From Candidatus Thiodiazotropha endoloripes (GTDB taxonomy: Bacteria > Pseudomonadota > Gammaproteobacteria > Chromatiales > Chromatiaceae), in NCBI RefSeq assembly GCF_001708965.1, contig NZ_LVJW01000006.1, positions 1,240,001 through 1,304,000 on the forward strand: a DNA stretch of 64,000 bases, read 5' to 3'. Below, piece by piece: positions 4,108-53,012 of this stretch (the stretch's first letter is position 1; each line of letters opens with the position of its first letter). The notes under the pieces were generated by a model. It saw nothing but the letters and a program-made list of their open reading frames with translations, did not search any database and had not been told where the DNA came from. Both the position numbers and the translations under genes were made by a program.

Positions 4108-5217
4108 ATGCCCAACAAAAAGAGAGTTCTGATAACAATATCCTCGATTACAGGTGGTGGTGCTGAGCACGTCGTAGAACATTTGTGCGAGCTGCTGGGG
4201 GAAAAATATGAGGTCATTTGTGGTTATTACAAGGAGTGTGGCGATCGCGGTGAAGCGTTGAAGGAGAAAGGCATCAAGGTTGTTAAAATCAAAAATGCCG
4301 AGCGAAAAAATCGAAACTATCTCAATTTCCTCGATCTGAGAAAGTTTGTGAAGGAGCACAATATTGACCTGATTCATGCCCATGATATCCACTCGATGAT
4401 GAATGCATCACAGGTCAAGTTACTGATGCCGAGTGTCAAAGTTGTCTATACATTTCATTTCGGCAACTACCCCAATATCGACAAGAAGATTTACTATTTT
4501 GAGAAACTGTTTACCAAGTTCATTGATGTCCTGATCGCTGTTGGAACCAAACAGGCAAACGCAATAAGAGATACCTATAAATATCCGGCAGATCGATTAC
4601 AGGTAATCTACAACGGTGTACATGCATTGGATTCTCAACCTGCAAAGGTTGAACAACAAGACCCGGATCGCCCCATCCTGTTCGGTTCACTGAGTACGCT
4701 GATTGAACAGAAAGGCATACCTGTACTGATCGATGCTGTTGAAATATTGGAGAAGAGGCACCCCGGTCGATCCAAGTTCATCATTGCCGGTGATGGCTAC
4801 ATGATGGATGAATTGCTCCAGCTGTGTGAGCAGAAAAATCTTTCTGAGATCATTGAGTTTACCGGTTGGGTAAGGGATGCCAATGTCAATCTGCTACCCA
4901 AGTTTGATGTCTTTGTACAAAGCTCAAAATGGGAAGCCATGTCGATGGTGATTCTTGAAGCCATGTCTGCTGGAAAGCCGATTGTCGCTACGGAAGTTGG
5001 TGAAAACGGTGTTGTGATCGAGCACGATTCCTGTGGCTTGATCGTACCTCCCAATCAAGCAGAGATGCTCGCTGATGCCATGGAGAGATTGCTGTTGGAT
5101 GGTGAATTGAGACGCACATTTGGTGAAAATGCAAAACAGCGGTTTGCTGATAACTTTACCGTTCAGCAGATGGCAGACAACTATGAAAAGTTATACAACT
5201 CAATGATGGAGTCGTAA
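4108..5217 (+). CDS. Glycosyltransferase family 4 protein
   Basis: This 369-residue GT-B glycosyltransferase likely adds a sugar to a surface polysaccharide or lipid carrier on the cytosolic face. It has the N-terminal ITGGGAEHVVEHL segment of GT4 enzymes, the hinge VIYNGV, and the donor-binding ExxxMVILEAMSAGKPIVATEVG block with E-x7-E spacing. A glycan ligase lies convergently downstream and a PEP-CTERM gene follows, so it may serve exopolysaccharide or O-antigen synthesis. Sugar specificity cannot be read. Confidence 0.85.
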   Translation: MPNKKRVLITISSITGGGAEHVVEHLCELLGEKYEVICGYYKECGDRGEALKEKGIKVVKIKNAERKNRNYLNFLDLRKFVKEHNIDLIHAHDIHSMMNASQVKLLMPSVKVVYTFHFGNYPNIDKKIYYFEKLFTKFIDVLIAVGTKQANAIRDTYKYPADRLQVIYNGVHALDSQPAKVEQQDPDRPILFGSLSTLIEQKGIPVLIDAVEILEKRHPGRSKFIIAGDGYMMDELLQLCEQKNLSEIIEFTGWVRDANVNLLPKFDVFVQSSKWEAMSMVILEAMSAGKPIVATEVGENGVVIEHDSCGLIVPPNQAEMLADAMERLLLDGELRRTFGENAKQRFADNFTVQQMADNYEKLYNSMMES

Positions 5218-5295
5218 TCCGGTTTATCTACCGACAATCCTTTCAAGCTTTTCGCCCTTGAGATTAGCCGTGCCGGTTGACGTGAATAAAACCTA

Positions 5296-6531
5296 TTAGA
5301 AATATCGTGGTCGGGCCGGTGCCGACTCCTCTTCGGTGGGCTCAGCACTGTTTTCCAACTCTTTCACTACGATTCGATGCACAGCAATCGTGAGTCCCAT
5401 CAGCAGAAACAGATGTGGGTAAACATATCCGGTAAGGAACATGGCGCAGACAGCCCAGGAGATGGTCGCCCAGTTGAGGGCCTGCGGCCAAAAAGGTGTT
5501 ATTTCGAGCCGCTGCTGATTCTCTGCGATCAGTTTTTGGGTTTCCCGATTGATCTTCAGATTATGCAGGATACTCAGTATGTATATGATGATTCCGGGAA
5601 AGCCATACTCTGCCAGTACCTTGAAATAGACACTGTGGGTTGAGATCCATCTCGCCGGATCATCCGGCTTTTTATAAAACCGACCGTAGGCTGAATTGAA
5701 ACTGCCTGCGCCGACTCCCAGTATAGGATTGTCGATCGCCATCTCTGTGGCCGTACGCCAGGCCTTGAGACGTCCCATTGCAGAAGAGTCCTCCTGATAG
5801 TCGACAATGGTCCCCATCCTTGAGAAATAACTTGTCGGGGAAAATGCGATAACCCCAATGCCTATGATGCCGATGAGAATAAACCCGGCGACCCTTTTAT
5901 TTGATATGAAACTGAGGTAGTAGAGCATTCCCGCTGCGAGCGCAAGTGAAGCCCCTCTTGACTGGGTGCCGACGATTCCGATCAGAATGATTAAAGCGAG
6001 TGCGACATAGCCATATTTGAATAGGGTGTTCTTGGTCGTGAAGGCGAGGTGAATGGCCAGTGGAAAGGCAACATTCTGAGACCAGCCGAAATCATTGCCG
6101 TCACCGAGAAAGAAACCACCGATGTAGAAGCCGACCCGTTCGCCTCCGACTTTGTCAAGATTCAATACGACCAGTGCCGCGTGAACGAGAGTGAATACCA
6201 GAGTGAACAACCTGAACTGCTTGAGGTTGGTCACCAGATAGATACAGATGAACATGAAAATAAAATAGCCGATCTGTACCTTCAGCGGTTCAATGGCATA
6301 GTTCTTTATCAAGCCGTGGATACCGGCAAATGCTGTTAACAGGACAAAGATGAAGGTGTAGATGACCGTCTTATATTGAAACAGTTCTGAAATCTTGTTT
6401 TTAGATATCAGATAGAGAAACAAAAGGGTCGAAATGACCAGTGTAAACGGAAGTGCTTTAAAGGCAGGTACGAAGGTACCTAGACCAGCATAGTCTGCTG
6501 CAATGAGGAAAAGAAATATGTATAACAGCAT
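5296..6531 (-). CDS. O-antigen ligase-like polytopic membrane protein (Wzy_C domain)
   Basis: This 411-residue inner-membrane protein has about ten hydrophobic segments and a large periplasmic loop. The loop includes GVGAGSFNSAYGRF and HSVYFKVLAEYGFPGIIIYI, typical of the WaaL/Wzy-C family that transfers undecaprenyl-linked glycans to lipid A core or protein. It runs convergent to the GT4 gene. A PEP-CTERM gene lies about 0.8 kb away, and exosortase-type systems often carry a related O-glycosylation ligase, so this could be that protein rather than an LPS ligase. Sequence alone does not decide. Confidence 0.8.
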   Translation of the reverse strand: MLLYIFLFLIAADYAGLGTFVPAFKALPFTLVISTLLFLYLISKNKISELFQYKTVIYTFIFVLLTAFAGIHGLIKNYAIEPLKVQIGYFIFMFICIYLVTNLKQFRLFTLVFTLVHAALVVLNLDKVGGERVGFYIGGFFLGDGNDFGWSQNVAFPLAIHLAFTTKNTLFKYGYVALALIILIGIVGTQSRGASLALAAGMLYYLSFISNKRVAGFILIGIIGIGVIAFSPTSYFSRMGTIVDYQEDSSAMGRLKAWRTATEMAIDNPILGVGAGSFNSAYGRFYKKPDDPARWISTHSVYFKVLAEYGFPGIIIYILSILHNLKINRETQKLIAENQQRLEITPFWPQALNWATISWAVCAMFLTGYVYPHLFLLMGLTIAVHRIVVKELENSAEPTEEESAPARPRYF

Positions 6532-34857: not shown

Positions 34858-35313
34858 TCAGTGCATGAGGCGTGAGATCAGTGACTGTTCAGGGAATGTG
34901 GTTTGAGTGAGATCGACGACTGCATCCGGTTGTAGCTTGAGTGCTGCATCGGCCAGAATGACAACGGGCAGCACCACATTATGTCCCCAGGGTTTGGTGC
35001 TGAATTCTGTTAGCCAGGTTATCACTGACTGATTCTGTTTTGAGACCAGCAACGATTCAATATTATGTAGTACTGTTGGTCCTGCCTGCATCGTCTCGAA
35101 CAGAGTGCGATCGAGTTCAGCAAGGGTCAGGTCTGCAGCCTTCATGCCGAGAGGTGCCATCTCGGTTTCACGATAATCGTAAAATGAATAGTTCAGTTCA
35201 TGTGCCAGGGTTTTGAATAGATCTGGGCGATATTCGGGAAAAGCGACAATCAGTCCATACCACTCCGTTTTGTTGGCTAACTGCTGAGCGACTATTTTTA
35301 TCCATTGTTCCAT
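34858..35313 (-). CDS. Unknown protein at the end of the redox cluster
   Basis: I do not recognise this protein of about 151 residues. From the ATG at 35313 it reads MEQWIKIVAQQLANKTEWYG and contains HELNYSFYDYRETEMAPLG, TVLHNIESLLVSKQNQSVITWL and VVLPVVILADAAL. The alternating hydrophobic strands and helices resemble an alpha/beta ATPase-like fold without a P-loop, but this is only an impression. The open frame extends upstream to 35571 across the end of the DUF302 gene in another frame; that part looks non-coding. It is the last gene of the minus-strand cluster, 86 bases after DUF302. Confidence 0.6.
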   Translation of the reverse strand: MEQWIKIVAQQLANKTEWYGLIVAFPEYRPDLFKTLAHELNYSFYDYRETEMAPLGMKAADLTLAELDRTLFETMQAGPTVLHNIESLLVSKQNQSVITWLTEFSTKPWGHNVVLPVVILADAALKLQPDAVVDLTQTTFPEQSLISRLMH

Positions 35314-35399
35314 CGAGTAATCCGGTATCTGTTCAGGCGTTCCTGGTATCGGTCTTCTACGTTGACTGAGGCACTGGCCAATTTGTCTGTTGTTGTTAT

Positions 35400-35909
35400 T
35401 TAGAAATCTCCAGTGGCACCCGCCGTCATTACTGCAAGCATGGCCTGGTTGACACGAATTGCGATGGTCTGCAGTTCCGGCGATAGGGAGGTGCTGTTGA
35501 TCAACATGTCGAGGTTGAGCATATAGAGCCAGGCTTTTCCATGCTGATCTTCCACCAGAGATATACGGCATGGCATGTAGGCTGAATAGAGAGGATCACT
35601 GACTACCATCTGTACGGCGTCTTCCGGATCGCAGAACTGCAGAATCTCGAGATGGGGGGATTTCAAACCTCGGGCTCGTACCTCTTCATGCACCTTCTGA
35701 CGTCCAACCAGGCGCAGGTTCAATTCTGCCGCTTTGGATGTCATGGCGTCACCTGCGTCGGCTAGGCTGACACCGCTGGCAAGGCTCATTTTAATGACTG
35801 ATTGATAGATGTCAGCAATCTCTACCTCAGGATCTTCACCGGCGGACAGGTTGAATGTAAGGAGTAAGAAAGCTAAGAAGCAGAGATTATATTTGGTAGA
35901 TAATTTCAT
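35400..35909 (-). CDS. DUF302-domain exported protein
   Basis: This 169-residue protein has a signal peptide (cleavage near NLSAG-ED) and a DUF302-like domain with the typical blocks ILQFCDPEDAVQMVVSDPLYSAYMPCRISLVED and a YMLNLD strand. DUF302 proteins are small periplasmic or cytosolic proteins often found near sulfur and heavy-metal redox genes; their biochemical role is not established. GGGGAGACG precedes the ATG. It is transcribed after the diheme cytochrome, about 95 bases away. Confidence 0.75.
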   Translation of the reverse strand: MKLSTKYNLCFLAFLLLTFNLSAGEDPEVEIADIYQSVIKMSLASGVSLADAGDAMTSKAAELNLRLVGRQKVHEEVRARGLKSPHLEILQFCDPEDAVQMVVSDPLYSAYMPCRISLVEDQHGKAWLYMLNLDMLINSTSLSPELQTIAIRVNQAMLAVMTAGATGDF

Positions 35910-36003
35910 GATCGTCTCCCCATAGTCGATGAATATGCAGGCAGATCATTTCGCTTCCGAAATAGTTTTACTAGTTATCTGCCTGATGGAAAGGTGATTT
36001 GCA

Positions 36004-36843
36004 TTAATTGGGCATGAACAGTATTCCTGTTGGGGTGATTCTGAAGTTGCCGGATAGACCAGCGATAGAACGCATATCCTGATTGAGCGGCTTGAGAACA
36101 ATATCGCCGGAAGGTGTGACTCTGAATTGGCCGGATATATTGAGATCGTCCTGATCGCCTCCCTGTACCATACCGACCATACTCATACTGTCCATCATGC
36201 TGGACATGCCTACCGAGAAGTCATTTGTTTCAGGAAGAGGTGGATGAGCAGGTAGAGTTGTGACATAGGCGATAATGTCATCGATTTCAGAGTCAGCATA
36301 GTCATCGAATGTTTCGTCTTCAGGATCGTCGTCATGGTGACGTTGTTTATCCTGAAATTTTTTGATTTGGCTAAAGATGTAACTGCCGTATTGCCCTGCT
36401 ACCGGTGGTATGTCCTTTTTAGGTTTTCCCAAACCTGATTTCTTGTGGCAGGATTTGCACACATCATTGAATATTTCTTTGCCTTTGTCGGGTTTGCCAT
36501 TAGGGTATTCAGGGATTTTTGGCAGGTTGAGATTGCGTAAGTTGACCCCTGCGAGGTATTCCGAAATGTCCCTGATATCGTCATCGGTCATTTTTTTGAT
36601 GGACGAAGCGATAACCATAGGAGCATAACTTCGTTCACCGGAACGATAGAATTTGAGTTCCTTTTCCAGATAGTCGGCGGGTAAGCCGGCCAATCTGGGA
36701 GACATGGTGCCAGGAGTTCCCTGACCATAGTCACCGTGGCAGAGTGCACAGCTCCTGTTAATCCGTTTGCCATTCTCGATATTCAAAGCCTGACATAGAT
36801 TTGGTAGTAATAGTAAGAGTATCAATACAGTTTTAAGCAGCAT
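36004..36843 (-). CDS. Periplasmic diheme cytochrome c with Met-rich tail
   Basis: This 279-residue protein has a signal peptide and two class I cytochrome domains, each with one haem site: CALCHG (about residue 33) and CKSCHK (about 130). It resembles cytochrome c4. A roughly 90-residue C-terminal extension holds a Met-rich stretch (VGMSSMMDSMSMVGM) and two related repeats, GQFRVTPSGDIVLKP and GNFRITPTGILFMPN. The same R-V-T-P-x-G motif occurs in the Met/Gly repeat protein at 42306-43154. It follows the ferredoxin gene by 35 bases and has an AGGAG site, so it is probably in the operon as electron donor or acceptor. Confidence 0.88.
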   Translation of the reverse strand: MLLKTVLILLLLLPNLCQALNIENGKRINRSCALCHGDYGQGTPGTMSPRLAGLPADYLEKELKFYRSGERSYAPMVIASSIKKMTDDDIRDISEYLAGVNLRNLNLPKIPEYPNGKPDKGKEIFNDVCKSCHKKSGLGKPKKDIPPVAGQYGSYIFSQIKKFQDKQRHHDDDPEDETFDDYADSEIDDIIAYVTTLPAHPPLPETNDFSVGMSSMMDSMSMVGMVQGGDQDDLNISGQFRVTPSGDIVLKPLNQDMRSIAGLSGNFRITPTGILFMPN

Positions 36844-36878
36844 TCATTGACTCCTGGGTTATCGGTTCAACTTTTATG

Positions 36879-37556
36879 TTAAGAATTATCGTTATCTACG
36901 TTGCCTTTAGAGTGGGCAATGAAACGAATCGAGGGATTGGTTAGTTTTGGATCAGCCATGTTCTTGACCTGTTTGACAGGCTGTTCATTTGGTCCAATCG
37001 CTGTTGTATCGAAATTGCCGCTATCGAGTTGATCGATTGGGCCGATATCCAACACGCGCATCATACAGGCCATAACACAGTATGGTTTGCGTCCGGCATC
37101 GATCTCATCGACGCACATGTTGCATTTTTTAACCAGATTATCACTGGGATCGAATTGAGGTGCGCCGTATGGACAGGCGGCTTCACAACGTCTGCAACCG
37201 ATACAAAGTGAGGAGTCAATGTCGACAATGCCGTCTTGCTTACGTTTGAAGATGGCGCCTGTTGGGCAGGTCGGCAGGCAGGCAGGTTGTGCACAGTGGT
37301 TGCAAGACATGTTGACCTTGTAAGCATAGACATCGGGAAAATCACCTCCCTCAATGTAGCTTACTCGGCGAAAGCGTGGTCCCGGCGCAAGCCCGTTTTT
37401 GTCTTTACATGCTATTTCACAGGCACGGCAGCCAATACAATCAACATTATGATGTATGAAGCCTAATTGTTGATCAGGATCAACAGGTGTGTAAACCTGT
37501 TGTTTACGCCGTTTGACCGCTGCTTTTATTTTTGATTTGTCCATGGTTTTGCTCAT
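36879..37556 (-). CDS. Four-cluster ferredoxin subunit of a DmsB/PsrB-type molybdoenzyme
   Basis: This 225-residue electron-transfer subunit has the cysteine motifs CIGCRACEIAC, CNHCAQPACLPTCPTG, CIGCRRCEAACPYG and CNMCVDEIDAGRKPYCVMAC, enough for four [4Fe-4S] clusters, as in DmsB. It has no signal peptide and would be carried through the Tat system with the catalytic subunit. It starts 23 bases after that gene's stop. No DmsC/NrfD-type membrane anchor is encoded in the window, so electrons must pass to another carrier such as the adjacent cytochromes. Confidence 0.9.
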   Translation of the reverse strand: MSKTMDKSKIKAAVKRRKQQVYTPVDPDQQLGFIHHNVDCIGCRACEIACKDKNGLAPGPRFRRVSYIEGGDFPDVYAYKVNMSCNHCAQPACLPTCPTGAIFKRKQDGIVDIDSSLCIGCRRCEAACPYGAPQFDPSDNLVKKCNMCVDEIDAGRKPYCVMACMMRVLDIGPIDQLDSGNFDTTAIGPNEQPVKQVKNMADPKLTNPSIRFIAHSKGNVDNDNS

Positions 37557-37579
37557 ACGAATGAACTCCAGTTGATCGA

Positions 37580-40168
37580 CTAGATGTCGCGGCCAAAGAC
37601 ATGGGTTCTGGATATGGATGTTTCATCCCAGCCTGCACGATGTTGTAGTGTTGTTTTACGTATGTTTACGAGAATGGTGTTGTAGGCAAAAGATCCTGCT
37701 GGACTCGGTGTGTCAGCGCTGAGCATATTGGGATTACCGGCACGATCGATGCCTTTGCTGTCCAAATCGATCCATGCCCCTTCGGGGATGGCGACAACGC
37801 CAGGCAGACATCTTTGGGTCACATAAGCCGGAACCACCAATCTGCCACGATCGTTCCATACTTCAATTTTGTCTCCTGTAGAGATACCGAGCTTTTTCGC
37901 GTCACCGGCATTGATTGTAATCTCCTGATCATAGGTTTCTCGCAGGATGGCGCTGTTATTGAAAATTGAATGTGTTCTATGTCTTGGATGTGGCGTGATC
38001 AAATGAAATGGATACTTTTCTGTTTTGGTTGGGTGGTTCAGGGATTCGAAAGGTTCAATCCATTTTGGAATTGAAGGAATATGGTAGCCATAACGTGTTT
38101 TGGTCCAGTCGTTGATGCGAGCCAGTTCGTCACACAGGATTTCAATTTTTCCTGAAGGTGTCTGAAACGGTAGGCCAAGTTCCACCTGATCCTGAAAGGC
38201 GATGTGCGGACGCTCAAGTTTTACTTTGTAGACACCGTGCTTTTTAAACTCCGTCCAGGGCATTTCCACATGTTGGTGATGCATTACCCGCTCTTCCCAC
38301 CAGGTACGCAGATACTCCTCATCGACCGGGTCTGGGTTGTTCCAATAGTCACGCGTGGCTTTCGGGTTGTATGCCTGGCCAAACTTATCGCCGATACCTG
38401 TCATGTTACCTAAGCGGTAGGCAAGTTCCGTAAACACCTGAAAGTCAGACTTGCTTTCACCCAATGGTTCGATCACTTTAGGTCTGTGTATATAGTAATG
38501 ACCCTTGTACCAGGGAAGGGCTACATCATGTCTTTCGAAGTGTGTGCAGATCGGTAACAATACGTCAGAATAGAGACCGGAGGTTGTAATCGTCTGGTCG
38601 AGGCAAACCACCAGATCCAACTTGTTGATGGCTTCGATTTCTGCATTGATATTGGTGAGTTGGTTGAACCAGTTTGATCCTTGATAGAATATGCCACGGA
38701 TATTCGGGATCACACCGTCAAGATTGTCATCGCGTGGCCAGAGACCAGCTTCCTGGCGGGTTACGTTGGGGTAGTTGTTGACAATATGAGCCCAACGATC
38801 CGATTTGATCGAGGAGAACCAGATATTGGAATAATCATCATATGGGTGGGCCACCCCTTCTGCATGCCAGGCCTTACCTACACCTTCGGCACAGCCGCCG
38901 AGTATGCCGATATTACCGGTCATAGCCTGTAGTGCGGCTGCCATTCGATTATACTGTTCACCGTAGTCGTTTCGTCCAGGGCCCCAGCACGCTTTGAGTG
39001 CGGCTGGTTTCGTTGTGGCATACATATCAGCAAGTTTTCTGATATCTGCTGCCTTGACGCCACAGATCTTTTCAGCCCACTCCGGTGTTTTAGGCTGACC
39101 GTCATACTTGCCCAGAATATAATCTTTGAAATTTTCTGTGCCGTTGGGTGAATTTTTTGACCATTCAGGCATGGTGTCTGCATCCATACCTTGTACAAAT
39201 TTATTGATGAATGCCTGGTCCTGTAGATTGTTGGTAAAGATGTAATGTGCCATACCAGCCATCATTGCTGCATCGGTATTGGGCTTGATTGGAATCCACC
39301 AAGCATCGAAGGTGGCTGCTGTATCGGTGTATAAGGGATCGATTACGACGAACTTACAGCCATTCTGTTTCGCCTTACGCATGTAGTAGATGGTATTTCC
39401 GCCATGAAATGTGTAGGCTGGATTCCAGCCCCACATGATCAATAGTTTCGAATGGGCGAAAGTATCATCTTCATTGCCGTCTTCAATGGTACCGAAGGTC
39501 CAACGTGAACTTGTGGTAGTACCCTGATAGGAGGGAACGGACCAGCAACTCGTGCGACAGGCAAACATTCCCAGAAAACGCCCTTGCAAACCTTCGATTT
39601 GATCTGATTTATGTAAGACACCATAAGAGGCCCCAGCATAGCTCTGATCGAGTATGGCTTGTGATCCATACTGGGCTTTTATTTCGATGAGCTTATTGGC
39701 GATGAAATCCAGTGCTTCATCCCAGGAGACACGTTTGAATTTACCTGAACCTCTTTCGCCAACACGCATCATCGGATAGAGTAATCTTTCGGCGCAATAG
39801 ATGCGTTCTCGATAGGCTCTGCCGCGAAGACAGGCTCTGAGTTGCGGTTCCTCATCCGTATCCTTGCCATAGCAACCATCCCGTTGGTAGCGTCCATCAT
39901 CCGAAGAGAGTCGCACAATCACATCATTCTGTTTATGAGCTACCAGCATATGACGTGAACCACAGTTATGGGCGCAACTGGTGACAACCGTTTCCAATTG
40001 GTTGTCGGTAGGATAGGGTTGATAAGCTTGTGCAGTAGCTTTATTGATTTTGACAAGCCCGCCTGCGGCCAATGTTGCAAAACCAGTTGCTGATACCTTG
40101 AGAAAATTTCTGCGTTCCTGATTCAGGGAGTTGTTGATCAGCTTTGTTAGTGCATGTTTCTTTATCAT
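37580..40168 (-). CDS. Tat-exported DmsA-like molybdopterin oxidoreductase, catalytic subunit
   Basis: This roughly 862-residue enzyme of the DMSO reductase family has a twin-arginine signal (QERRNFLKVSATGFA). Its N-terminal Fe-S motif reads CAHNCGSRH...ACLRGR: two Cys, then His where DmsA has the third Cys, then the fourth Cys. Further DmsA-like blocks are WGWNPAYTFHGGNTIYY, VIDPLYTDTAATFDAWWIPIKPNTDAAM, CWGPGRNDYGEQYNRMAAALQAMTGNIG and the C-terminal WNDRGRLVVPAYVT. The region SCWSVPSYQG probably holds the Mo ligand; Ser is likely. The ATG at 40168 was preferred to the TTG at 40207. Substrate is unknown: sulfoxide, thiosulfate, polysulfide and oxyanions are all possible. Confidence 0.88.
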   Translation of the reverse strand: MIKKHALTKLINNSLNQERRNFLKVSATGFATLAAGGLVKINKATAQAYQPYPTDNQLETVVTSCAHNCGSRHMLVAHKQNDVIVRLSSDDGRYQRDGCYGKDTDEEPQLRACLRGRAYRERIYCAERLLYPMMRVGERGSGKFKRVSWDEALDFIANKLIEIKAQYGSQAILDQSYAGASYGVLHKSDQIEGLQGRFLGMFACRTSCWSVPSYQGTTTSSRWTFGTIEDGNEDDTFAHSKLLIMWGWNPAYTFHGGNTIYYMRKAKQNGCKFVVIDPLYTDTAATFDAWWIPIKPNTDAAMMAGMAHYIFTNNLQDQAFINKFVQGMDADTMPEWSKNSPNGTENFKDYILGKYDGQPKTPEWAEKICGVKAADIRKLADMYATTKPAALKACWGPGRNDYGEQYNRMAAALQAMTGNIGILGGCAEGVGKAWHAEGVAHPYDDYSNIWFSSIKSDRWAHIVNNYPNVTRQEAGLWPRDDNLDGVIPNIRGIFYQGSNWFNQLTNINAEIEAINKLDLVVCLDQTITTSGLYSDVLLPICTHFERHDVALPWYKGHYYIHRPKVIEPLGESKSDFQVFTELAYRLGNMTGIGDKFGQAYNPKATRDYWNNPDPVDEEYLRTWWEERVMHHQHVEMPWTEFKKHGVYKVKLERPHIAFQDQVELGLPFQTPSGKIEILCDELARINDWTKTRYGYHIPSIPKWIEPFESLNHPTKTEKYPFHLITPHPRHRTHSIFNNSAILRETYDQEITINAGDAKKLGISTGDKIEVWNDRGRLVVPAYVTQRCLPGVVAIPEGAWIDLDSKGIDRAGNPNMLSADTPSPAGSFAYNTILVNIRKTTLQHRAGWDETSISRTHVFGRDI

Positions 40169-40213
40169 CGTCACTGTTCCGGTTTTTGTCTCTGTAAGTG
40201 TTGGCAAAAGAGA

Positions 40214-40996
40214 CTAATTCGTGAAACGAGAATCGTATTCCGTTGGACGATTTTTTGCCCACTCAGGTAATGCACCTGGCATTCTTTGCAACCAGGGACG
40301 TCTTACGTAGGGATAGGGAATGGCATACCAGGCGCGTCCACCATGGCAGCCGTAACAAAGATCACTTTCGTTGGCTTGCAGGTTTTCAATTTCATATTCA
40401 TTAAGAAAGTTCAATTTATGACGGACTGTCCTGTATTCCTTGTGACAAGTAACACAATCATTTTCAAATTTTTCTGCGACTTCAGGCCAATCGCCGGATA
40501 GACCTGACATCACTTTGTAATCGAATCTCCCATGGCACATAAGGCAGATGTCGGGATCAACGGCCTTACGCAAAATCAATCCGGATTGTGATGTTTCTGA
40601 GCTGCCTGAAACTTCATCTTTTGGGTCATGTCCTTGGTGACAGGTGATGCATTTGAATTGCATGAAGCGTCTGGCTTCAGGGGTTATAAGGTGGCGACGA
40701 TGAAATGTCTCTTGAGGGCCGGTATAGTTCGGATTTGCCTGATACCAGGCAATACTCTCTTCTGATTTGATTCCTGCTGGCGATTCGCTACGAGACTTTC
40801 TCTGAATAATTTCCTGGTGACAGTTGAGGCACTGCTCATCACTGGCCTGGTCGATGGCGGGTTTGAAGTGAATTGGGTCCCAGCGGGAGCCAAGATAGTC
40901 ATGCTCCGGGTCTTCTACTTCATTTGCCTGGATCTGTGTAACACAAAGCATCAAACTCATGAGCAGCAATATCAGTGCCGTTTGGCTTTGTTTCAT
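40214..40996 (-). CDS. Periplasmic pentaheme cytochrome c
   Basis: This 260-residue protein has a signal peptide (cleavage near QIQAN) and five CxxCH haem sites: CLNCHQ, CITCHQ, CLMCHG, CVTCHK and CYGCHG. Many spare His residues (FHRRHLI, GHDPKD) could serve as distal ligands. It has no membrane anchor, unlike NapC/NrfH. Its gene starts the operon before the molybdoenzyme, 45 bases apart, and GGAGAT precedes the ATG. It probably passes electrons between the Fe-S subunit and another envelope carrier. Confidence 0.9.
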   Translation of the reverse strand: MKQSQTALILLLMSLMLCVTQIQANEVEDPEHDYLGSRWDPIHFKPAIDQASDEQCLNCHQEIIQRKSRSESPAGIKSEESIAWYQANPNYTGPQETFHRRHLITPEARRFMQFKCITCHQGHDPKDEVSGSSETSQSGLILRKAVDPDICLMCHGRFDYKVMSGLSGDWPEVAEKFENDCVTCHKEYRTVRHKLNFLNEYEIENLQANESDLCYGCHGGRAWYAIPYPYVRRPWLQRMPGALPEWAKNRPTEYDSRFTN

Positions 40997-41407
40997 AGCA
41001 ATCTCCTCATCTACTCATACAATGTATAAGTAACAGCGATTTCGTTATTGTGCCGGTTGTCGGTAACGCAATGATCATCAGTATTCAGTAGATACTGTAT
41101 AACCAGACAACCAAGCTGCTGTTGAAAGTATTAATAATGCTTGTGAAACGATGGGTCAGCTTATTTTTGTGAGGTTCTCATAGTGCGAGACTTTTCTGAC
41201 ACGAGTGAATGCTATTGTTCTGTGCGCTGGTTGTAATTAACTTATGTTAATGATTTTCGAAAATATGATGGCGATATGGCCACACTATTAAAAGTGTTTT
41301 GATGGTTGGCTTGTTACTTAAGTAGGTTTTCAATCGAAGTGCTACAAAACCTAAATTGAGGATAACAGGAGTGGTTTGTGCAATGACGTGGGCTGAACTT
41401 AAAGTGA
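40997..41407. other. Regulatory gap upstream of the redox operon
   Basis: This AT-rich region between the Crp/Fnr gene's 3' end and the pentaheme gene should hold the operon promoter. It contains the palindrome at 41236-41251. No gene was recognised. Confidence 0.6.
41236..41251. promoter_or_regulatory. Candidate Crp/Fnr-family operator
   Basis: ATTAAC-TTAT-GTTAAT is a perfect palindrome with a 4-base spacer, the geometry of Fnr and Dnr sites (TTGAT-N4-ATCAA). It lies about 240 bases upstream of the pentaheme start and next to a Crp/Fnr gene. Confidence 0.5.
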
Positions 41408-42181
41408 TTAAAGAATGTTGCTTACATGCAGGCAATTTGGATCAAAATGAGCCAATGATTTGAGTTTTTCTTCATTCAGAACCTGTATCTTTCCTTTGCC
41501 ACAAGCAATTAAATTGTCCTGTTTGAGTTGTCTGAGTGTTCTGTTTACATGGATAGCCGTCAAACCAACTGCATCTGCAAGGTCTTCTTGGGTGATAGGT
41601 AAGTCGATCGGACGGTTGTCATAGGGTGGTGTGTTGGTTCTATTGAGTTGTTTAAGCCGATGGTTGAATTCAACCAGTGTAAAAGCAATGCTCTCTACAG
41701 CGCTTTTGGCTCCGGTGCTGGCTAAATGCTCCTGACAGAAAGCCATCATCTTGGCGTTTTTCATAATTAATTCTGAAGCGATATCTTTATGCTCACAGAT
41801 CATTCTGTAAACTTCATCCTTTGAAAACGCACACACCGTGATATCTGTAAGGGCAACAGCACCATGATGCATCGTACCTTCCAGGTCGCCCTGGAAACCT
41901 AAAAAATCCCCTGGTGTAGCAAACCGCAGTCCCTGGATCTTGCCGTTTTTTAGTGTCTTGTATAATTTCACGCAACCACTGAAAAGCGTGTAAACGTGAG
42001 TGCTGGTTTCTCCTTCATGGTAGAGATGTGATTTTGCCTCATAGGTGAGTTGCGAAGAGCGGTGATTCTGAGTATGTCCAAGTTGATCCTGAGGAACGCG
42101 TTTAAATAAAGCCATGCTGCGGATCGGGCAGGCCTCACATTGAGTCTCGCTTTTTTGCTTCTCTTTTGAGCTATCTAACAT
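41408..42181 (-). CDS. Crp/Fnr-family transcriptional regulator
   Basis: This regulator of about 257 residues has a Cys pair near the N-terminus (QCEACPIRS), a cNMP-binding-type beta roll (LYHEGETSTHVYTLFSGCVKLYKTLKNGKIQGLRFATPGDFLG) and a C-terminal HTH (ITQEDLADAVGLTAIHVNRTLRQLKQDNLI). Fnr uses four Cys for its [4Fe-4S] cluster; here CxxC plus two later Cys (SGC, VCAF) could serve, but the pattern differs. It probably controls the adjacent redox genes. The ATG at 42181 was chosen because the GTG at 42214 lies inside a palindrome. Confidence 0.88.
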   Translation of the reverse strand: MLDSSKEKQKSETQCEACPIRSMALFKRVPQDQLGHTQNHRSSQLTYEAKSHLYHEGETSTHVYTLFSGCVKLYKTLKNGKIQGLRFATPGDFLGFQGDLEGTMHHGAVALTDITVCAFSKDEVYRMICEHKDIASELIMKNAKMMAFCQEHLASTGAKSAVESIAFTLVEFNHRLKQLNRTNTPPYDNRPIDLPITQEDLADAVGLTAIHVNRTLRQLKQDNLIACGKGKIQVLNEEKLKSLAHFDPNCLHVSNIL

Positions 42182-42210
42182 TCTATTGTCGATAAGTCCG
42201 CCAAAAGATT

Positions 42211-42224
42211 GCACTGTTTAGTGC
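42211..42224. promoter_or_regulatory. Candidate autoregulatory operator of the Crp/Fnr gene
   Basis: GCACT-GTTT-AGTGC is a perfect 5-4-5 palindrome 30 bases upstream of the chosen start codon. Its spacing matches Crp/Fnr-family sites, but its sequence differs from the one at 41236. Confidence 0.4.
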
Positions 42225-42238
42225 TATTGGAATGAATA

Positions 42239-42266
42239 GGCTGCCATCGTAAATCCGATGGCAGCC
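42239..42266 (-). terminator. Hairpin after the Met/Gly repeat gene
   Basis: A perfect 11-bp stem GGCTGCCATCG/CGATGGCAGCC with a 6-base loop lies about 40 bases after the stop of the minus-strand repeat gene. It has no T-run. It separates that gene from the Crp/Fnr gene. Confidence 0.6.
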
Positions 42267-42305
42267 ATGTTGTTTCAGTAACTCAGTAGGGAGCGTTCCG
42301 CCCTA

Positions 42306-43080
42306 TCACCAGAACCGATACCAGGCGCGACTCTGCTGGCCGCCCATGCCGCTCATTCCATCCATACCGGACATCCCGCTCATGCCACCCATTCCGGACA
42401 TCCCGTTCATGCCGCTCATGCCGGACATCCCGCTCATGCCACCCATTCCGGACATCCCGGACATTCCACTCATGCCGCCCATACCGGACATCCCGCTCAT
42501 ACCGCCCATTCCGGACATCCCGCTCATGCCACCCATTCCGGACATCCCGCTCATGCCACCCATTCCGGACATCCCGCTCATGCCACCCATTCCGCCCATA
42601 CCGGACATCCCGCTCATGCCGCCCATACCGGACATTCCGCTCATGCCACCCATGCCGGACATTCCGCTCATGCCACCCATACCGGACATTCCGCTCATGC
42701 CGCCCATACCGGACATTCCGCCCATGCCACCCATACCGGACATTCCGCTCATGCCACCCATGCCGGACATCCCGCCCATGCCGGACATTCCGCCCATGCC
42801 GGACATTCCGCCCATACCGGACATTCCACTCATGCCGCCCATACCGGACATTCCGCTCATGCCACCCATACCGGACATTCCGCTCATGCCGGCTGGATAG
42901 AGTTGAACTCCTTGAGGTGTCACACGGTAAGTTCCATACGTTCCGCCCATGCCGGACATCCCGCTCATGCCACCCATGCCGGACATCCCGCTCATGCCGC
43001 CCATGCCGGACATCCCGCTCATGCCACCCATGCCGGACATCCCGCTCATGCCGGACATTTGGTTATTACTCATTTGTGCG
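42306..43080 (-). repeat. 27-bp coding tandem repeats
   Basis: Units of 27 bp coding MSGMSGMGG, with 18-bp and 36-bp variants, fill most of the gene. Synonymous differences (for example ATCCCG against ATTCCG on the plus strand) show the array is not freshly duplicated. The spacing is regular and there are no unique spacers, so this is not a CRISPR array. Confidence 0.9.
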
Positions 43081-43154
43081 TGCACGTGAGGAATACTCAA
43101 CATTCCACTGGTTAGTACGAGAATCATGGCTTGGGCTGTTTTTTTGAGTTTCAT
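42306..43154 (-). CDS. Secreted Met-Ser-Gly-Met-Gly-Gly repeat protein
   Basis: This 282-residue protein has a signal peptide (cleavage near HVHA-QM). It is then almost entirely tandem 9-residue units MSGMSGMGG (27-bp DNA units) with shorter MSGMGG and longer variants. One non-repeat island (about residues 74-90) reads GTYRVTPQGVQLYPAG, resembling the C-terminal repeats of the diheme cytochrome at 36004-36843. The C-terminus is QQSRAWYRFW. About a third of residues are Met. No known family was recognised; Met-rich proteins can bind copper or scavenge oxidants, and Gly/Ser repeats favour a flexible or fibrous state. A GAGGGAG site supports the start. Repeat number may vary or be assembly-sensitive. 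Confidence 0.85.
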   Translation of the reverse strand: MKLKKTAQAMILVLTSGMLSIPHVHAQMSNNQMSGMSGMSGMGGMSGMSGMGGMSGMSGMGGMSGMSGMGGTYGTYRVTPQGVQLYPAGMSGMSGMGGMSGMSGMGGMSGMSGMGGMSGMGGMSGMGGMSGMGGMSGMSGMGGMGGMSGMGGMSGMSGMGGMSGMSGMGGMSGMSGMGGMSGMSGMGGMGGMSGMSGMGGMSGMSGMGGMSGMSGMGGMSGMSGMGGMSGMSGMSGMGGMSGMSGMSGMNGMSGMGGMSGMSGMDGMSGMGGQQSRAWYRFW

Positions 43155-45886: not shown

Positions 45887-46435
45887 TTAAAAGTGTGGTT
45901 TTTCCGGTGCATCCTGGAACATCTGTACCGAGTTGCTGACCTCTTCTTTAGCCGCTTCAGCCCCTTCCCAGCCGGATACACGAACCCATTTGCCCTCATC
46001 GAGATCCTTGTAGTGTTCGAAAAAATGAGCAATACGCTCCATCAGCTCTTCCGGCATGTCATCATAGGATTTCACGTGGGTCCAGCGGCTGGAGACATCG
46101 TCCACAGGTACGGCAACCACTTTGGCATCGTCGCCCGATTCGTCCGTCATTTTCAATACCGCGACAGGACGACAGCGGATCACGGAACCGGGAATCAGTG
46201 GAAATGCCGTGGGGACCATCACATCACAGGGATCACCGTCGTCTGACAAGGTATGGGGAATGTAACCGTAGTTGGCCGGGTAGTGCATAGCTGTGCGCAG
46301 GATGCGGTCGACGAACATCGCGCCGGTCTCCTTGTCCACTTCATACTTGACAGGGTCGGCGTTCGAGGGAATTTCAATTATGACGTTGATTTCGTCAGGA
46401 ATACTCTTTCCTGAAGAGACACGGTCTAGGTTCAT
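45887..46435 (-). CDS. ppa: Inorganic pyrophosphatase, family I
   Basis: This 182-residue soluble enzyme hydrolyses pyrophosphate. It shows [47 protein letters not shown] and the final [16 protein letters not shown]. It lies near hppA and pfp on the same strand, a cluster dealing with pyrophosphate, but hppA is separated by 394 bases and a terminator. Confidence 0.95.
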
Positions 46436-46829
46436 TTGTCTTACCTTGCAGTGAAAAACAGCGGTGATCGAATCCAGCCAGTAGGCCGGTGGTGTGAGAT
46501 GTGAAGGGTACGGATTACCAGAGCGGGTGTCCAGTATGAGCCGGCCTGATGGCTTGACCCGAGAGTCGTATCGTTGCGTAGATTATCCTGACAACGGCGA
46601 GGGGGTTGTTGGAATGCCCTATTTGGCGTGGTCAAGCGCCCGGTAAGGGGTCGTCTGCATTTCTGTAGAGACCTTGATAAACCTTGATTTTTCAATGATA
46701 TGTATTCAGGTCGTCTGATTCAGATCTGTCTGCTTGAAGGATTTGAGCTAAAACCATAGTTACAAAATGGTCTTAGGCTATAAAAAAGGGGAGCCGAGGC
46801 TCCCCTTGAAGTTTTGTTGCTGTGCTCTT
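46436..46829. other. Intergenic region between ppa and hppA
   Basis: It holds the hppA terminator at 46786-46807 and probably the ppa promoter. No gene was seen. Confidence 0.55.
46786..46807 (-). terminator. Rho-independent terminator of hppA
   Basis: Read on the minus strand, AAGGGGAGCC pairs with GGCTCCCCTT around a two-base loop and is followed by TTTTTA. It lies 23 bases after the hppA stop. Confidence 0.9.
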
Positions 46830-48878
46830 TTAGAGAAGTGGCACTATCAACAGGGCGACAATGTTGATGATCTTGATCAACGGATTGATCGCAGGACCAG
46901 CGGTGTCTTTGTAGGGGTCGCCGACGGTGTCGCCGGTGACAGCCGCTTTATGGGCATCAGATCCTTTACCACCGAAATTACCATCTTCGATGTACTTTTT
47001 CGCATTGTCCCAGGCGCCGCCGCCAGCGGTCATTGAGATGGCCACGAACAGGCCGGTGACAATGGTGCCGATCAGCAGACCACCCAGGGCTTGTGCGCCG
47101 AGGAACAGACCGACCAGTATTGGTACGGCAATCGGTAGCAGTGACGGGATGATCATCTCCCTGATCGCGGCTTTGGTCAGCATGTCCACGGCATTGCCGT
47201 ACTCCGGTTTCTCGCTGTGGTCCATGATGCCCGGTTTCTCACGAAACTGACGACGTACCTCGTTGACGATACCGCCGGCCGCACGACCCACGGCTTCCAT
47301 CGCCATGGCGCCGAACAGGAAGGGCACCAAGCCACCGATCAACAGGCCGATCAGGACCATGTGATTGGAGAGATCGAAGCTGATCGCTGTACCGGTATGG
47401 CTCTCAAGGCTGTGGGTGTAGTCGGCAAACAGTACCAGCGCAGCCAGACCGGCAGAGCCGATGGCATAGCCTTTGGTGACCGCTTTGGTGGTATTGCCAA
47501 CCGCATCCAGTGGATCGGTGATGTTGCGGATCTTCTCGTCCAGCTCGGCCATCTCAGCGATACCACCGGCGTTGTCGGTGATTGGACCGTAAGCATCGAG
47601 TGCAACGATGATGCCGGTCATGGAGAGCATTGAGGTGGCTGCCACAGCGATACCGTAGAGGCCAGCCATATCATAGGCACCCCAGATCGCCGCACAGATC
47701 ACCAGTACCGGGGCAGCGGTGGATTTCATCGAGATACCCAGGCCGGCAATGACATTGGTGCCGTCACCGGTGGTGGAGGCTTCCGCGATGTAACGCACCG
47801 GATTGTACTCTGTGGAGGTGTAGTACTCGGTGATGACCACCATGGCAGCGGTCAAAACCAGGCCGATCATGGCAGAGCCGAACAGCGCCATGACTGGATC
47901 GGAAACCGTGGTGTCACCTGCGGTCAGCACCACACTGCCCATCATGTAGTCTGTGACGTAGTAGAAGGCGACAGCGGCCAGTACCCCGGCGACAATCAGT
48001 CCCTTGTAGAGGGCAGGCATCACGTTGGTATCGCTGTCCTTGGCCCTGACGAAGTAGGTGCCGATGACAGAGGCTATGATAGAGACTCCACCCAGCACCA
48101 GCGGATAGATGACGGCTTCATTGCTGGCGCCCGTAACCAGCAGACTGCCGAGCAGCATGGTGGCAACCACGGTTACCGCATAGGTCTCGAACAGATCAGC
48201 GGCCATACCGGCACAGTCACCCACGTTGTCACCTACGTTGTCGGCGATGACCGCGGGGTTGCGTGGATCATCCTCCGGGATACCGGCCTCTACCTTGCCC
48301 ACGATATCGGCGCCCACATCCGCACCTTTGGTGAAGATGCCGCCACCCAGTCGGGCGAAAATGGAGATCAGTGAACCGCCGAAGGCGAGACCGACCAGGG
48401 CGTGCAGGGCCTGGCTGTCGGAGACACCCATCATGTTCAGGACGTAGTAGTATCCGGCAACACCCAGCAATGCCAGGCCAACCACCAGCATACCGGTGAT
48501 GGCGCCGCCACGGAAGGCGACCTGCAGTGCCGCATTGATGCCGTCGTGGGCCGCTTCAGCGGTACGCAGGTTGGCGCGAACCGAGATGTTCATGCCGATA
48601 TAGCCCGCCAGGCCGGAGAAGATGGCGCCAATCGCAAACCCGATGGCGGTGGCACTATCCAGGCCGAAGTAGATCACCACCAAAACCACGATACCGACAA
48701 AGCCGATCGCCGTGTACTGGCGGTTCAAATAGGCTTGAGCGCCTTCCTGCACAGCGCCGGCAATCTCACGCATTCTTTCGTTGCCTTCCGGCTGCGCGAG
48801 AATCCATTTGACGGATATGAAGCCGTAAGCCAGTGCAGCTGCGGCACAGGCTAGGGCAAAGATCAGTTCTGTATTCAC
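46830..48878 (-). CDS. hppA: Membrane-bound proton-translocating pyrophosphatase
   Basis: This 682-residue inner-membrane pump couples PPi hydrolysis and synthesis to ion transport. It has about 16 helices, the substrate motifs [20 protein letters not shown] and [19 protein letters not shown], and [16 protein letters not shown]. The segment [10 protein letters not shown] carries Lys where K+-dependent enzymes have Ala, so this should be the K+-independent H+ pump. pfp lies upstream on the same strand, an arrangement reported in methanotrophs and sulfur-oxidising symbionts. Confidence 0.96.
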
Positions 48879-51395: not shown

Positions 51396-53012
51396 ATGCG
51401 TATCGTGATACTCGGGGCGCCTGGAGCCGGTAAGAGAACCCAGTCCGCTCTGTTGGCAGAAAAGCTTGGTCTTGCCATCGTAACCACGGGTGATTTACTC
51501 AAGCAGGCGATCGCTGAAGAGAGCCAATTGGGCCTGGAGGTGAAGGCGCTGCAGGATGCGGGACGGATTGTAACGGAAGATATCATTCTTGGACTGCTAC
51601 GGGAGCAACTGCTGCTTCCTGCCATGGCGGATGGATTCATTCTCGACGGATTTCCCAGAAACCTGTTACAGGCACTTACCCTGGATGAGCTTTTGCAGGA
51701 GATCGGCCAGCCACTGGATCTGGTGTTGTTGATCGATATCGATAATGACCACCTGATGGAGCGCCTGGTTGGCAGGCGGACCTGTCGCAGCTGCGGCCAG
51801 CTCTATAATGTCTACCGCAATCCACCCATTGTCGATGGGGTCTGTGATAGCTGCGGTGGCCGACTGCACCAACGTTCAGATGACAATGAGGAGACTGTCA
51901 GCAGCCGGATTCATGTTTTCGATCATCTGATCGCGCCGCTCATCACTCATTATGAAAAGAGTCGCCGGTTGGCTCGGGTGGATGGCAATGGTAGCCTTGA
52001 GGCGGTTTTCGGGCACTTGATCCAGGCGATTGAAGATGCCCAGAGTTCCACAGCTGCAACATCAGACACGGCAAACAATGGAATTGAACCCCCTGCGCAG
52101 ATGTCAGGTTCCCAGGCCGTGACGCAGGCTGAGGCAGTGTCTCAGGCCGAACCCGGGGAGCAAATCCAAGCGAGGGATGAGAAGCGGGCTAGCGAACCGG
52201 TGAAATCAGATAAGCGCCCATCCAAACAGGCCTCAAAAAAGACTACCCAGAAAAAGAGAGCCGCTAAAGCGGCCAAAGCTTCGAAAAATCCCCCACAGAA
52301 GAGTGCCAAACCGAGCGGGACAACAAAGGCCAAAACGAGCAAGCCGAAGAGCAAATCCAAGGGAAGTGCCAAGCCGGCTATGAAGCGTGCAAAACCCTCA
52401 TCTGAAAAGTCAGCTCAGGTAAAGAAAAAGAAAAAAATCAGCAGTAAGGCAAAAGTTGCCAAAAAATCAACCAGCAAGAAAGGTAAGCCGGTAGCAAGCC
52501 GCAAAAAAATCGCTCGAACGAAGAAAAAGATCACAACCAAGCGCCGTTCTACGGCAAAGGTTGTGAAAAAGTCTGTTGCCAAGAAGCGTAAACCGACAAC
52601 GCCATCGAAGAAAAAGGTCAGTGTAAAGACCAGATCCGCTGCAAAGAGCGTCAAGCAAAGCAAACCATCTGCAAGCCGGAAAAAAGCCGCGTCATCAAAC
52701 AAGAAGGTTGTGAAAAAACAGCTTCAGGCAGCGAACACGAGCAGTAGAAAAAAACTGCTTAAGAAAAAGTCTGCTGCCAAGAAAACAGTGAAAAAGCAGG
52801 TTGCAAAAACAGCCAGGAGCTCGGCAAGCAAAAAAACTATTGCCGCCAAGAAAAAAATCTCAACGAAAAAGGCCAAGGCCTCTCAGGTTAAAAAGGTATC
52901 GGCAAAGAGAGCTAAGAAACAATTAGGGAAAAAGTCGTTGGTGAAAAAGGCTGCAACCAGGAAGAAGAGAAGCGCCTCCAAACAGACGCTTAAGAAAAAA
53001 TTGAAAAAGTGA
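51396..53012 (+). CDS. Adenylate kinase fused to a Lys/Ala-rich histone-H1-like tail
   Basis: This 538-residue protein has an N-terminal adenylate kinase (about 1-215): P-loop GAPGAGKRTQ, NMP motif TTGDLL, DGFPR, a zinc-type LID with CRSC and CDSC pairs, and RSDDNEETV. The P-loop has Arg where nearly all adenylate kinases have Gly (GKGTQ). From about residue 230 it turns into a low-complexity Lys/Ala/Ser tail (KKKKKISSKAKVAKKS and similar) of over 270 residues, like AlgP or histone H1. That tail should bind nucleic acid or polyphosphate. It reads in one frame with no stop. Whether the genome has another normal adk is unknown. Confidence 0.88.
   Translation: MRIVILGAPGAGKRTQSALLAEKLGLAIVTTGDLLKQAIAEESQLGLEVKALQDAGRIVTEDIILGLLREQLLLPAMADGFILDGFPRNLLQALTLDELLQEIGQPLDLVLLIDIDNDHLMERLVGRRTCRSCGQLYNVYRNPPIVDGVCDSCGGRLHQRSDDNEETVSSRIHVFDHLIAPLITHYEKSRRLARVDGNGSLEAVFGHLIQAIEDAQSSTAATSDTANNGIEPPAQMSGSQAVTQAEAVSQAEPGEQIQARDEKRASEPVKSDKRPSKQASKKTTQKKRAAKAAKASKNPPQKSAKPSGTTKAKTSKPKSKSKGSAKPAMKRAKPSSEKSAQVKKKKKISSKAKVAKKSTSKKGKPVASRKKIARTKKKITTKRRSTAKVVKKSVAKKRKPTTPSKKKVSVKTRSAAKSVKQSKPSASRKKAASSNKKVVKKQLQAANTSSRKKLLKKKSAAKKTVKKQVAKTARSSASKKTIAAKKKISTKKAKASQVKKVSAKRAKKQLGKKSLVKKAATRKKRSASKQTLKKKLKK

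Follow-up and report, generated by a model that had tools for sequence, protein, structure and literature searches.

The window studied here, a 64,000-nucleotide stretch of DNA from Candidatus Thiodiazotropha endoloripes, contains a locus at 34858-43154 in which eight genes, all on the minus strand, encode a molybdoenzyme of the dimethyl sulfoxide (DMSO) reductase family, here called MoA, an iron-sulfur (Fe-S) subunit, a pentaheme and a diheme cytochrome c, a DUF302 protein, a Crp/Fnr-family regulator, a small protein, and a predicted secreted protein built of methionine and glycine repeats. The locus raises the question of what a methionine polymer and a molybdoenzyme have to do with each other. 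The data point, by association only, to the methionine sulfoxide (MetO) of the repeat protein as the substrate of MoA, and the repeat protein may be a methionine sink for oxidants that is recharged by MoA, the Fe-S subunit and the cytochromes through MetO reduction, a reading to which we assign a probability of about one half. The families given to the eight genes in the original prediction, which was made from the sequence alone, agree with the Pfam matches (DUF302, cytochrome c, Fer4, Molybdopterin/Molydop_binding, CXXCH cytochrome, and Crp/Fnr) and with the counts of CXXCH motifs and cysteines. The gene set had also been called unusual, and the cluster was indeed not found described in the literature that was searched.

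The repeat protein and its link to MoA

The repeat protein (42306-43154, minus strand) consists of 282 amino acids, including 78 Met, 103 Gly and no Cys, and features a signal peptide recognized by eye followed by (Met-X-Gly)n repeats with one insert, GTYRVTPQGVQLYPAG. Tripeptides were counted in 83 reading frames from 79 sources, which partly overlap in that two collections share organisms. Met occupies position 1 in 4629 of 4652 tripeptides and Gly occupies position 3 in 4651, figures that are somewhat favourable because a triplet was counted only if at least one of these two residues was kept. Position 2 is occupied by Ser (2660), Gly (1462), Asn (209), Arg (105), Tyr (81), and others, and in other lineages this middle residue is swapped wholesale, to Tyr/Arg at locus L156 and to Arg/His at L157, with Met and Gly unchanged. 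The codons of the repeats are varied, with all four codons used for Gly and six for Ser. The conserved feature of the repeats is thus Met and Gly and not the middle residue.

Inserts such as YFKITPQGQIFFYP separate the blocks of repeats. A profile of the insert motif, trained on repeat proteins only and run against 7678 open frames, found window-type diheme cytochromes as its best non-repeat matches (eight frames, from five genomes besides the window), with whole-protein E values of 0.003-0.009 compared to 0.07 for the next best match and two copies in each frame that are individually weak. In the window, the diheme cytochrome (36004-36843, minus strand, two CXXCH motifs) features a Met-rich tail in which the two copies read FRVTPSGDI.. 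and FRITPTG... The repeat protein and the diheme cytochrome therefore appear to share a module. A less strict version of the motif matched 28 of 41 frames of an exported protein of ~280 amino acids that is encoded in related clusters, but also 21 of 116 MoA frames, and nothing was drawn from it.

The repeat protein is matched by the Collagen model, we think because Gly recurs at every third residue. A collagen-like adhesin was considered and rejected; models of the Lcl/Scl type match as well, but the Lcl, SclB and SclA scores are far below the cut-offs and the repeats contain no Pro. An AlphaFold model of the repeat protein from the single sequence, with a mean predicted local distance difference test (pLDDT) score of 46, features repeats without regular structure and a short hairpin at residues 76-85, which is the insert; at this confidence the model can do no more than hint at unstructured repeats. 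A comparison of the repeat protein with phages gave no match.

The link between the repeat gene and MoA was examined in three sets of genomes. A pattern-based scan of 84,980 species genomes revealed 456 relatives, and the best 80 of the 456 gave 79 named loci with 81 MoA genes, many of these loci being cut by contig ends and most coming from metagenome bins. Among the record titles of these best 80 are Thiodiazotropha, Sedimenticola, tubeworm symbionts, Thiohalocapsa, Thiobacillus, Tepidiphilus, Thiothrix, Thermopetrobacter, and Thiodubiliella, and in a few cases (a Clostridia, a Dichelobacter) the assignment is probably wrong. A repeat gene, defined as at least four consecutive Met-X-Gly within 4.5 kb, lies upstream of 65 of the 81 MoA genes. 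Six others lie within 1.6 kb of a contig end, and ten have none, namely the tandem second copies in L070 and L071 and the single loci L072, L074, L081, L087, L089, L095, L115, and L125. When the genomes of these eight single loci and of two contig-end loci (L073 and L075) were searched, a repeat match was found elsewhere in the genome in 8 of 10, some of the matches being short.

The other two sets agree with this result. MoA of at least 74% identity is encoded in 28 of 56 relatives (own genome counted), and all 28 have a repeat match of at least 69% identity, while of the 28 relatives without MoA four have weak repeat matches (33-54% identity) and 24 have none. The class sample comprises 185 genomes, of which 11 bear MoA, three of these being also among the relatives. 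A (Met-X-Gly)6 DNA pattern is found in 16 of the 185, that is, in 11/11 genomes with MoA vs 5/174 without (Fisher p 2.7e-14, not corrected for kinship), and the reversed control pattern gave 0 among the class-sample rows listed, so that the repeat exceeds chance. One of the pattern matches, in genome G145, is by eye the tail of GroEL. The repeat protein belongs to the MoA system.

The repeat gene is also found without MoA. Nine Thiodiazotropha loci were fetched in which it lies away from any MoA (a short contig-end match, G013:C11, is not included), and in seven of them (L146, L147, L149, L153, L161, L163, and L165) it adjoins a convergent MsrA or MsrA-MsrB gene. The encoded proteins feature a lipoprotein-like signal by eye and are hence predicted to be exported. 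Four of these neighbours were confirmed by Pfam (PMSR with E values of ~1e-60, and SelR in L147) and the other three by BLAST with 81-98% identity. The seven genomes contain two or three msrA genes each, and an adjacency by chance is therefore unlikely, about one in several hundred by our own estimate. The linkage to MoA and the adjacency to MsrA therefore tie the Met polymer to two unrelated kinds of enzyme, one of which, MsrA, is a known MetO reductase, while the other, MoA, belongs to a family with known sulfoxide reductases. L148 also encodes (5005-5307), ~2.2 kb from the stand-alone repeat gene, another kind of small exported protein that is rich in Met (24%) and in Lys/Glu, beside an AhpC/TSA-like protein with a twin-arginine translocation (Tat) signal.

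MoA, its redox partners, and two types of cluster

MoA is encoded at 37580-40168 (minus strand) and features a Tat motif recognized by eye; its start is most likely not the listed TTG at 40207 but the ATG at 40168, which gives 862 amino acids. The best NCBIfam models are DmsA/YnfE for MoA and DmsB for the Fe-S subunit, but MoA scores 611.6 bits against the DmsA/YnfE model TIGR02166, which is below the cut-off of 777.7. In a tree with five E. coli enzymes (quick method, midpoint root, support by the Shimodaira-Hasegawa-like approximate likelihood ratio test (SH-aLRT), no bootstrap) the 91 MoA rows are set apart from DmsA/YnfEF by a long branch with a support of 99. Judged from these comparisons MoA is a clade of its own outside DmsA/YnfE, and its closest relatives are those of Candidatus Thiodiazotropha, the symbionts of lucinid clams. 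Ser213 is present in 91/91 MoA rows and aligns with the Ser of DmsA, YnfE, YnfF, TorA, and BisC and with Ser147 of DorA, which we take to be the Mo ligand; the same position in Ser-ligated S/N-oxide reductases is thus shared by MoA. Additionally, Tyr177 and Gly179 are present in 91/91 rows, and Tyr177 corresponds to the Tyr of DorA and BisC. The FS0 site consists of Cys65, Cys69, His73, and Cys113. Its third ligand is His in 91/91 rows vs Cys in E. coli DmsA, YnfE, and YnfF, so that the four-cysteine motif of that family (Cys-x3-Cys-x3-Cys-x(n)-Cys) is absent. An AlphaFold model of MoA had a mean pLDDT of 38, a confidence too low for use.

The Fe-S subunit (36879-37556, minus strand) is a ferredoxin-like, DmsB-like protein with 16 Cys, enough for four 4Fe-4S clusters. 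The pentaheme cytochrome c (40214-40996, minus strand) features five CXXCH motifs and a signal peptide by eye and is predicted to be exported. None of the eight genes encodes a DmsC/NrfD-like anchor, which bears out the original prediction and, with cytochromes in place of DmsC, distinguishes the operon from DmsABC/YnfEFGH of E. coli, the best-scoring family. The sole DmsC-family match in the genome, at C3:412813, lies ~3 kb from another molybdoenzyme match; NrfD was not searched genome-wide. It is plausible that the cytochromes replace the quinol-oxidising membrane subunit. Outside the locus, the genome encodes four NapC-type proteins that score over the cut-off and could be the link. In Shewanella DmsEFAB, DmsAB is fed by multiheme cytochromes without DmsC. 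The window locus is similar in its multiheme cytochromes without DmsC and differs in its Met-repeat protein; no decaheme or beta-barrel family is found among the family matches of its eight genes, and the DmsE model matches the pentaheme weakly.

MoA genes occur in two types of cluster. The common cluster, found in gamma- and alphaproteobacteria, consists of a divergent sigma-54 response regulator and sensor kinase, exported proteins of ~280 and 94 amino acids, the repeat protein, the pentaheme cytochrome, MoA, the Fe-S subunit, a TorD/NarJ-type chaperone, and a 4Fe-4S protein. A second copy in the own genome, here called the main paralog, lies on contig C3 and encodes a MoA that is 77% identical to the window MoA; the window copy is the rarer paralog. 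In the window-type cluster the regulator, the diheme cytochrome, and DUF302 replace the two-component system, the chaperone, and the ferredoxin, and window-type MoA forms a sub-branch with 99 SH-aLRT (7 rows). The original prediction counted on the repeat gene and the regulator being conserved beside the molybdoenzyme in relatives. This is borne out for the repeat gene, whereas the Crp/Fnr regulator is present in 5 of the 79 named loci and was dropped as a core member; the response regulator and the sensor kinase are each found in 25 of the 79, many of these loci being cut at their ends. In tubeworm symbionts the window-type cluster lies directly behind the common cluster, complete to DUF302 in L070 and cut after the diheme gene in L071. 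The Sedimenticola locus L072 features the regulator, pentaheme, and MoA genes only, and its contig ends just past MoA. A plasmid of the alphaproteobacterium Rhodobacter xanthinilyticus carries nearly the full common set, in which the ~280-amino-acid protein was not seen, and its pentaheme domain is preceded by a fused class-I cytochrome domain.

Three members of these clusters deserve separate mention. The 94-amino-acid exported protein (5923-6207 of L048, and relatives) has a GMxGPYDIRxWH-like end and no Pfam family, and its position ahead of the repeat gene is conserved in both gamma- and alphaproteobacteria. The sensor kinase divergent from the common cluster (2443-4311 of L048) features a Cys-rich PAS region and, by eye, a heme c motif (CxxCH) within the sensor part. 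In Sedimenticola L074 (6142-8586) the pentaheme and MoA genes are followed by a gene for an 814-amino-acid exported protein in the place of the Fe-S subunit, with no adjoining repeat gene, and this may be a third variant.

A proposed methionine sink and its alternatives

In the reading that we favour, the repeat protein would be a sacrificial Met polymer in the periplasm, the thioethers of which would be converted to methionine sulfoxide by oxidants, namely H2O2, hypohalous acids, and possibly reactive species of sulfur or nitrogen. MoA, the Fe-S subunit, and the pentaheme cytochrome, joined by the diheme cytochrome in the window copy, would draw respiratory electrons from the quinone or cytochrome pool to reduce the sulfoxides and so recharge the sink. 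Docking between the repeat protein and the diheme cytochrome may be mediated by the insert motif, which the diheme tail shares. DorA of Rhodobacter has no Fe-S subunit and shares with MoA the Ser at the Mo-ligand position and the Tyr of its SYGW motif; we know of no dedicated Met-rich substrate for it. The pairing of a Met-rich scavenger with a MetO reductase is already known, and YedY belongs to the sulfite-oxidase fold family. DorA, a DMSO reductase, is described as reducing protein-bound MetO (PMC7402097). In the MrpX/YedY system (SigF/NrsF) of perchlorate islands, mrpX, which encodes a periplasmic Met-rich peptide, occurs with the MetO reductase genes yedYZ, and further islands contain exported msrA/msrB (PMC4623255). 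The pairing of MoA with the repeat protein would follow the same logic with another enzyme family. It likewise links a very Met-rich protein, exported by eye, to a candidate reductase, and differs in that the reductase is a DMSO-reductase-family enzyme with Fe-S and multiheme partners and not of the YedY/MsrP family, that the Met-rich partner is a long (MXG)n polymer, and that the regulators beside it are a sensor kinase with a sigma-54 regulator, or Crp/Fnr, and not SigF/NrsF.

Several observations weigh against this reading, the support for which is genomic. The SYGW motif of DorA reads SYAG in the window MoA, with Gly in place of Trp, and SYGW is described as a requirement for DorA-like enzymes to reduce sulfoxides (PMC7402097). 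The adjacency to MsrA represents a single orthologous neighbourhood of convergent genes, and no MsrA neighbour is found at L148, at L162, or at three repeat loci outside the genus (L151, L184, and L185). A repeat match is absent from two of the ten MoA-bearing genomes searched for an unlinked repeat, G221 (L075) and G227 (L125). MoA is also no simple substitute for MsrP, which is found in 5/11 MoA-bearing vs 73/174 other class genomes; a strict replacement of MsrP by MoA was rejected for this lack of mutual exclusion, and in the own genome MsrP gave no match at E <= 1e-40. The cytochrome partners suit either direction of electron flow. Additionally, dsrA matches over the cut-off are found in 9/11 MoA-bearing vs 51/174 other class genomes (Fisher p 8e-4, uncorrected for kinship), and in lucinid symbionts the dmsB and dmsD transcripts are reported to rise with aprAB (PMC12172469).

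The last two points favour the main rival, a role of MoA in a step of sulfur oxidation, in which it would be a periplasmic oxidoreductase of inorganic or organic sulfur that passes electrons to c-type cytochromes, and the Met/Gly protein would serve as a scaffold or bind elemental sulfur or persulfide. This explanation is tentative, and we consider it rather unlikely. It is consistent with the class-I cytochrome domain fused to the pentaheme in Rhodobacter xanthinilyticus and with a second dsrA region ~8-12 kb downstream of the main paralog (1386-5798 of L160, on contig C3 of the own genome, apart from the dsrA at C3:627256), beside which lie dsrB-like, soxYZ-like, and YeeE-like genes, the latter two named by eye. 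In lucinid symbionts dmsAB is likewise described near soxY, YeeE/D, and dsrAB (PMC11237559). The dsr neighbourhood is not general, however, and was not seen in the 18-kb stretch L052. Enrichment of soxB is not clear (7/11 vs 68/174, p 0.10), the Ser at the Mo-ligand position is that of S/N-oxide reductases, and the stand-alone repeat genes beside MsrA are left unexplained.

That MoA is an ordinary respiratory reductase of DMSO or trimethylamine N-oxide, as the literature on lucinid symbionts suggests, with a cytochrome link in the place of DmsC as in Shewanella, is improbable. DMSO has been proposed there as a possible acceptor (PMC6872982), the best models are those of DmsA/YnfE and DmsB, the common cluster includes the TorD/NarJ-type chaperone, and a Crp/Fnr gene lies beside the window copy. 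This explanation has to contend with the score below the DmsA cut-off, the long branch, and the change from Cys to His in FS0 described above, and it gives no role to a Met polymer found in 11/11 MoA-bearing class genomes. A further alternative is that the polymer, in which each third residue is Met, serves as a sponge for Cu(I)/Ag(I) and that MoA or MsrA merely keeps its Met reduced. The M-x-x-M spacing resembles the Mets motifs of copper proteins, and the Met residues of the repeats are conserved. We regard the sponge as the least probable of these explanations; no copper gene was identified among the recurring neighbours, in which no search was aimed at copper genes, and the sponge would require MetO reduction as well, which makes it partly a form of the methionine sink.

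A more speculative extension of the methionine sink, and a long shot, is that the polymer is a rechargeable solid-phase electron store. In the presence of oxygen or oxidants it would become poly-methionine sulfoxide, and in their absence it would be respired by MoA and the cytochromes, so that symbionts living across oxic-anoxic swings would carry their own terminal acceptor, with the Fnr-like regulator switching the system on. A redox-switched condensation of (MXG)n could be part of such a store; the Met-rich low-complexity domain of yeast Ataxin-2 reportedly undergoes redox-switched condensation.

The system may have been seen before under another name. In five transcriptomes and six proteomes of a lucinid symbiont, a gene annotated as anaerobic DMSO reductase is reported to be one of the most strongly expressed (PMC6872982), and dmsB and dmsD are listed in the upwelling-season top 100 of two Thiodiazotropha clades (PMC12172469). 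This highly expressed gene is probably the main paralog, because the T. endoloripes genome G016 contains one member of the MoA clade and nothing else above 32% among the matches listed, and because adjacent Fe-S and chaperone genes occur in the common cluster type and not in the window type. The high abundance suits a bulk antioxidant and also a central enzyme of sulfur oxidation. If the expressed gene is the main paralog, the usual reading as DMSO respiration is doubtful and the partner of the enzyme is a Met polymer. In the open-licence literature searched, no description was found of a (Met-X-Gly)n partner, of a DMSO-family clade with a Cys-Cys-His-Cys FS0, of its multiheme feed, or of the cluster, nor of a Met-rich protein in chemosynthetic symbionts, a DMSO reductase of Endoriftia, a MetO-reducing molybdoenzyme of sulfur oxidisers, or a sulfur globule protein with Gly-rich repeats. 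If the methionine sink is real, the idea of methionine as a catalytic antioxidant would extend from a short peptide with YedY to a polymer fed by the respiratory chain across many sulfur oxidisers. If the assignment of the substrate fails, the cluster would still be an unnamed, widespread, and probably highly expressed system. The question is directly testable in cultured carriers, among them Thiohalocapsa halophila DSM 6210 (L082) and Rhodobacter xanthinilyticus LPB0142 (L031).

The regulator and the rest of the window

The Crp/Fnr-family regulator (41408-42214, minus strand) features a CxxC at 26/29, Cys81, and Cys128, all kept among the relatives listed, with a spacing that presumably differs from that of E. 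coli FNR. A palindrome, TTAAC-N4-GTTAA, lies at 41237-41250 in the gap between the regulator gene and the pentaheme operon and is a candidate operator. It is the one match in 64 kb, where the chance mean is 0.52, and is not significant alone. Of six regulator-bearing loci checked, five have the palindrome between the regulator and pentaheme genes, in two cases with one mismatch, and L072 does not have it. The kept Cys residues and the recurring palindrome therefore make it plausible that an Fnr-like protein controls the window operon in response to redox state or oxygen. Canonical FNR boxes were rejected as support; the pattern with two mismatches is over-represented window-wide (60 vs 35.7 expected), and the sole perfect match, 37470-37483, lies inside the Fe-S gene. 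An 11-base-pair, terminator-like stem-loop (42239-42266, minus strand) occupies the gap between the repeat gene and the regulator gene; such sites are weak as a class, with 12 in the region vs 8.3 expected.

The DUF302 protein (35400-35909, minus strand) has a signal-peptide-like start and travels with the window-type cluster. It is followed by the gene for a small protein (34858-35313, minus strand), which has no Pfam match and is the end of the window-type cluster in Thiodiazotropha loci. Its start is most likely at 35313, which gives 151 amino acids, a length similar to that of its relatives. Rfam (gathering cut-offs) and tRNA scans of the window were empty. The flanks of the locus look ordinary and, judged by eye, encode an EngB-like GTPase and, on the opposite strand, a DNA polymerase I. 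Elsewhere in the window, the gene at 51396-53012 encodes an adenylate kinase of 538 amino acids in which the Pfam adenylate kinase match covers residues 5-189 and ~350 residues beyond it have no assigned function, and at 45887-48878 a gene that by eye resembles an inorganic pyrophosphatase is found near one for a membrane H+-pyrophosphatase.

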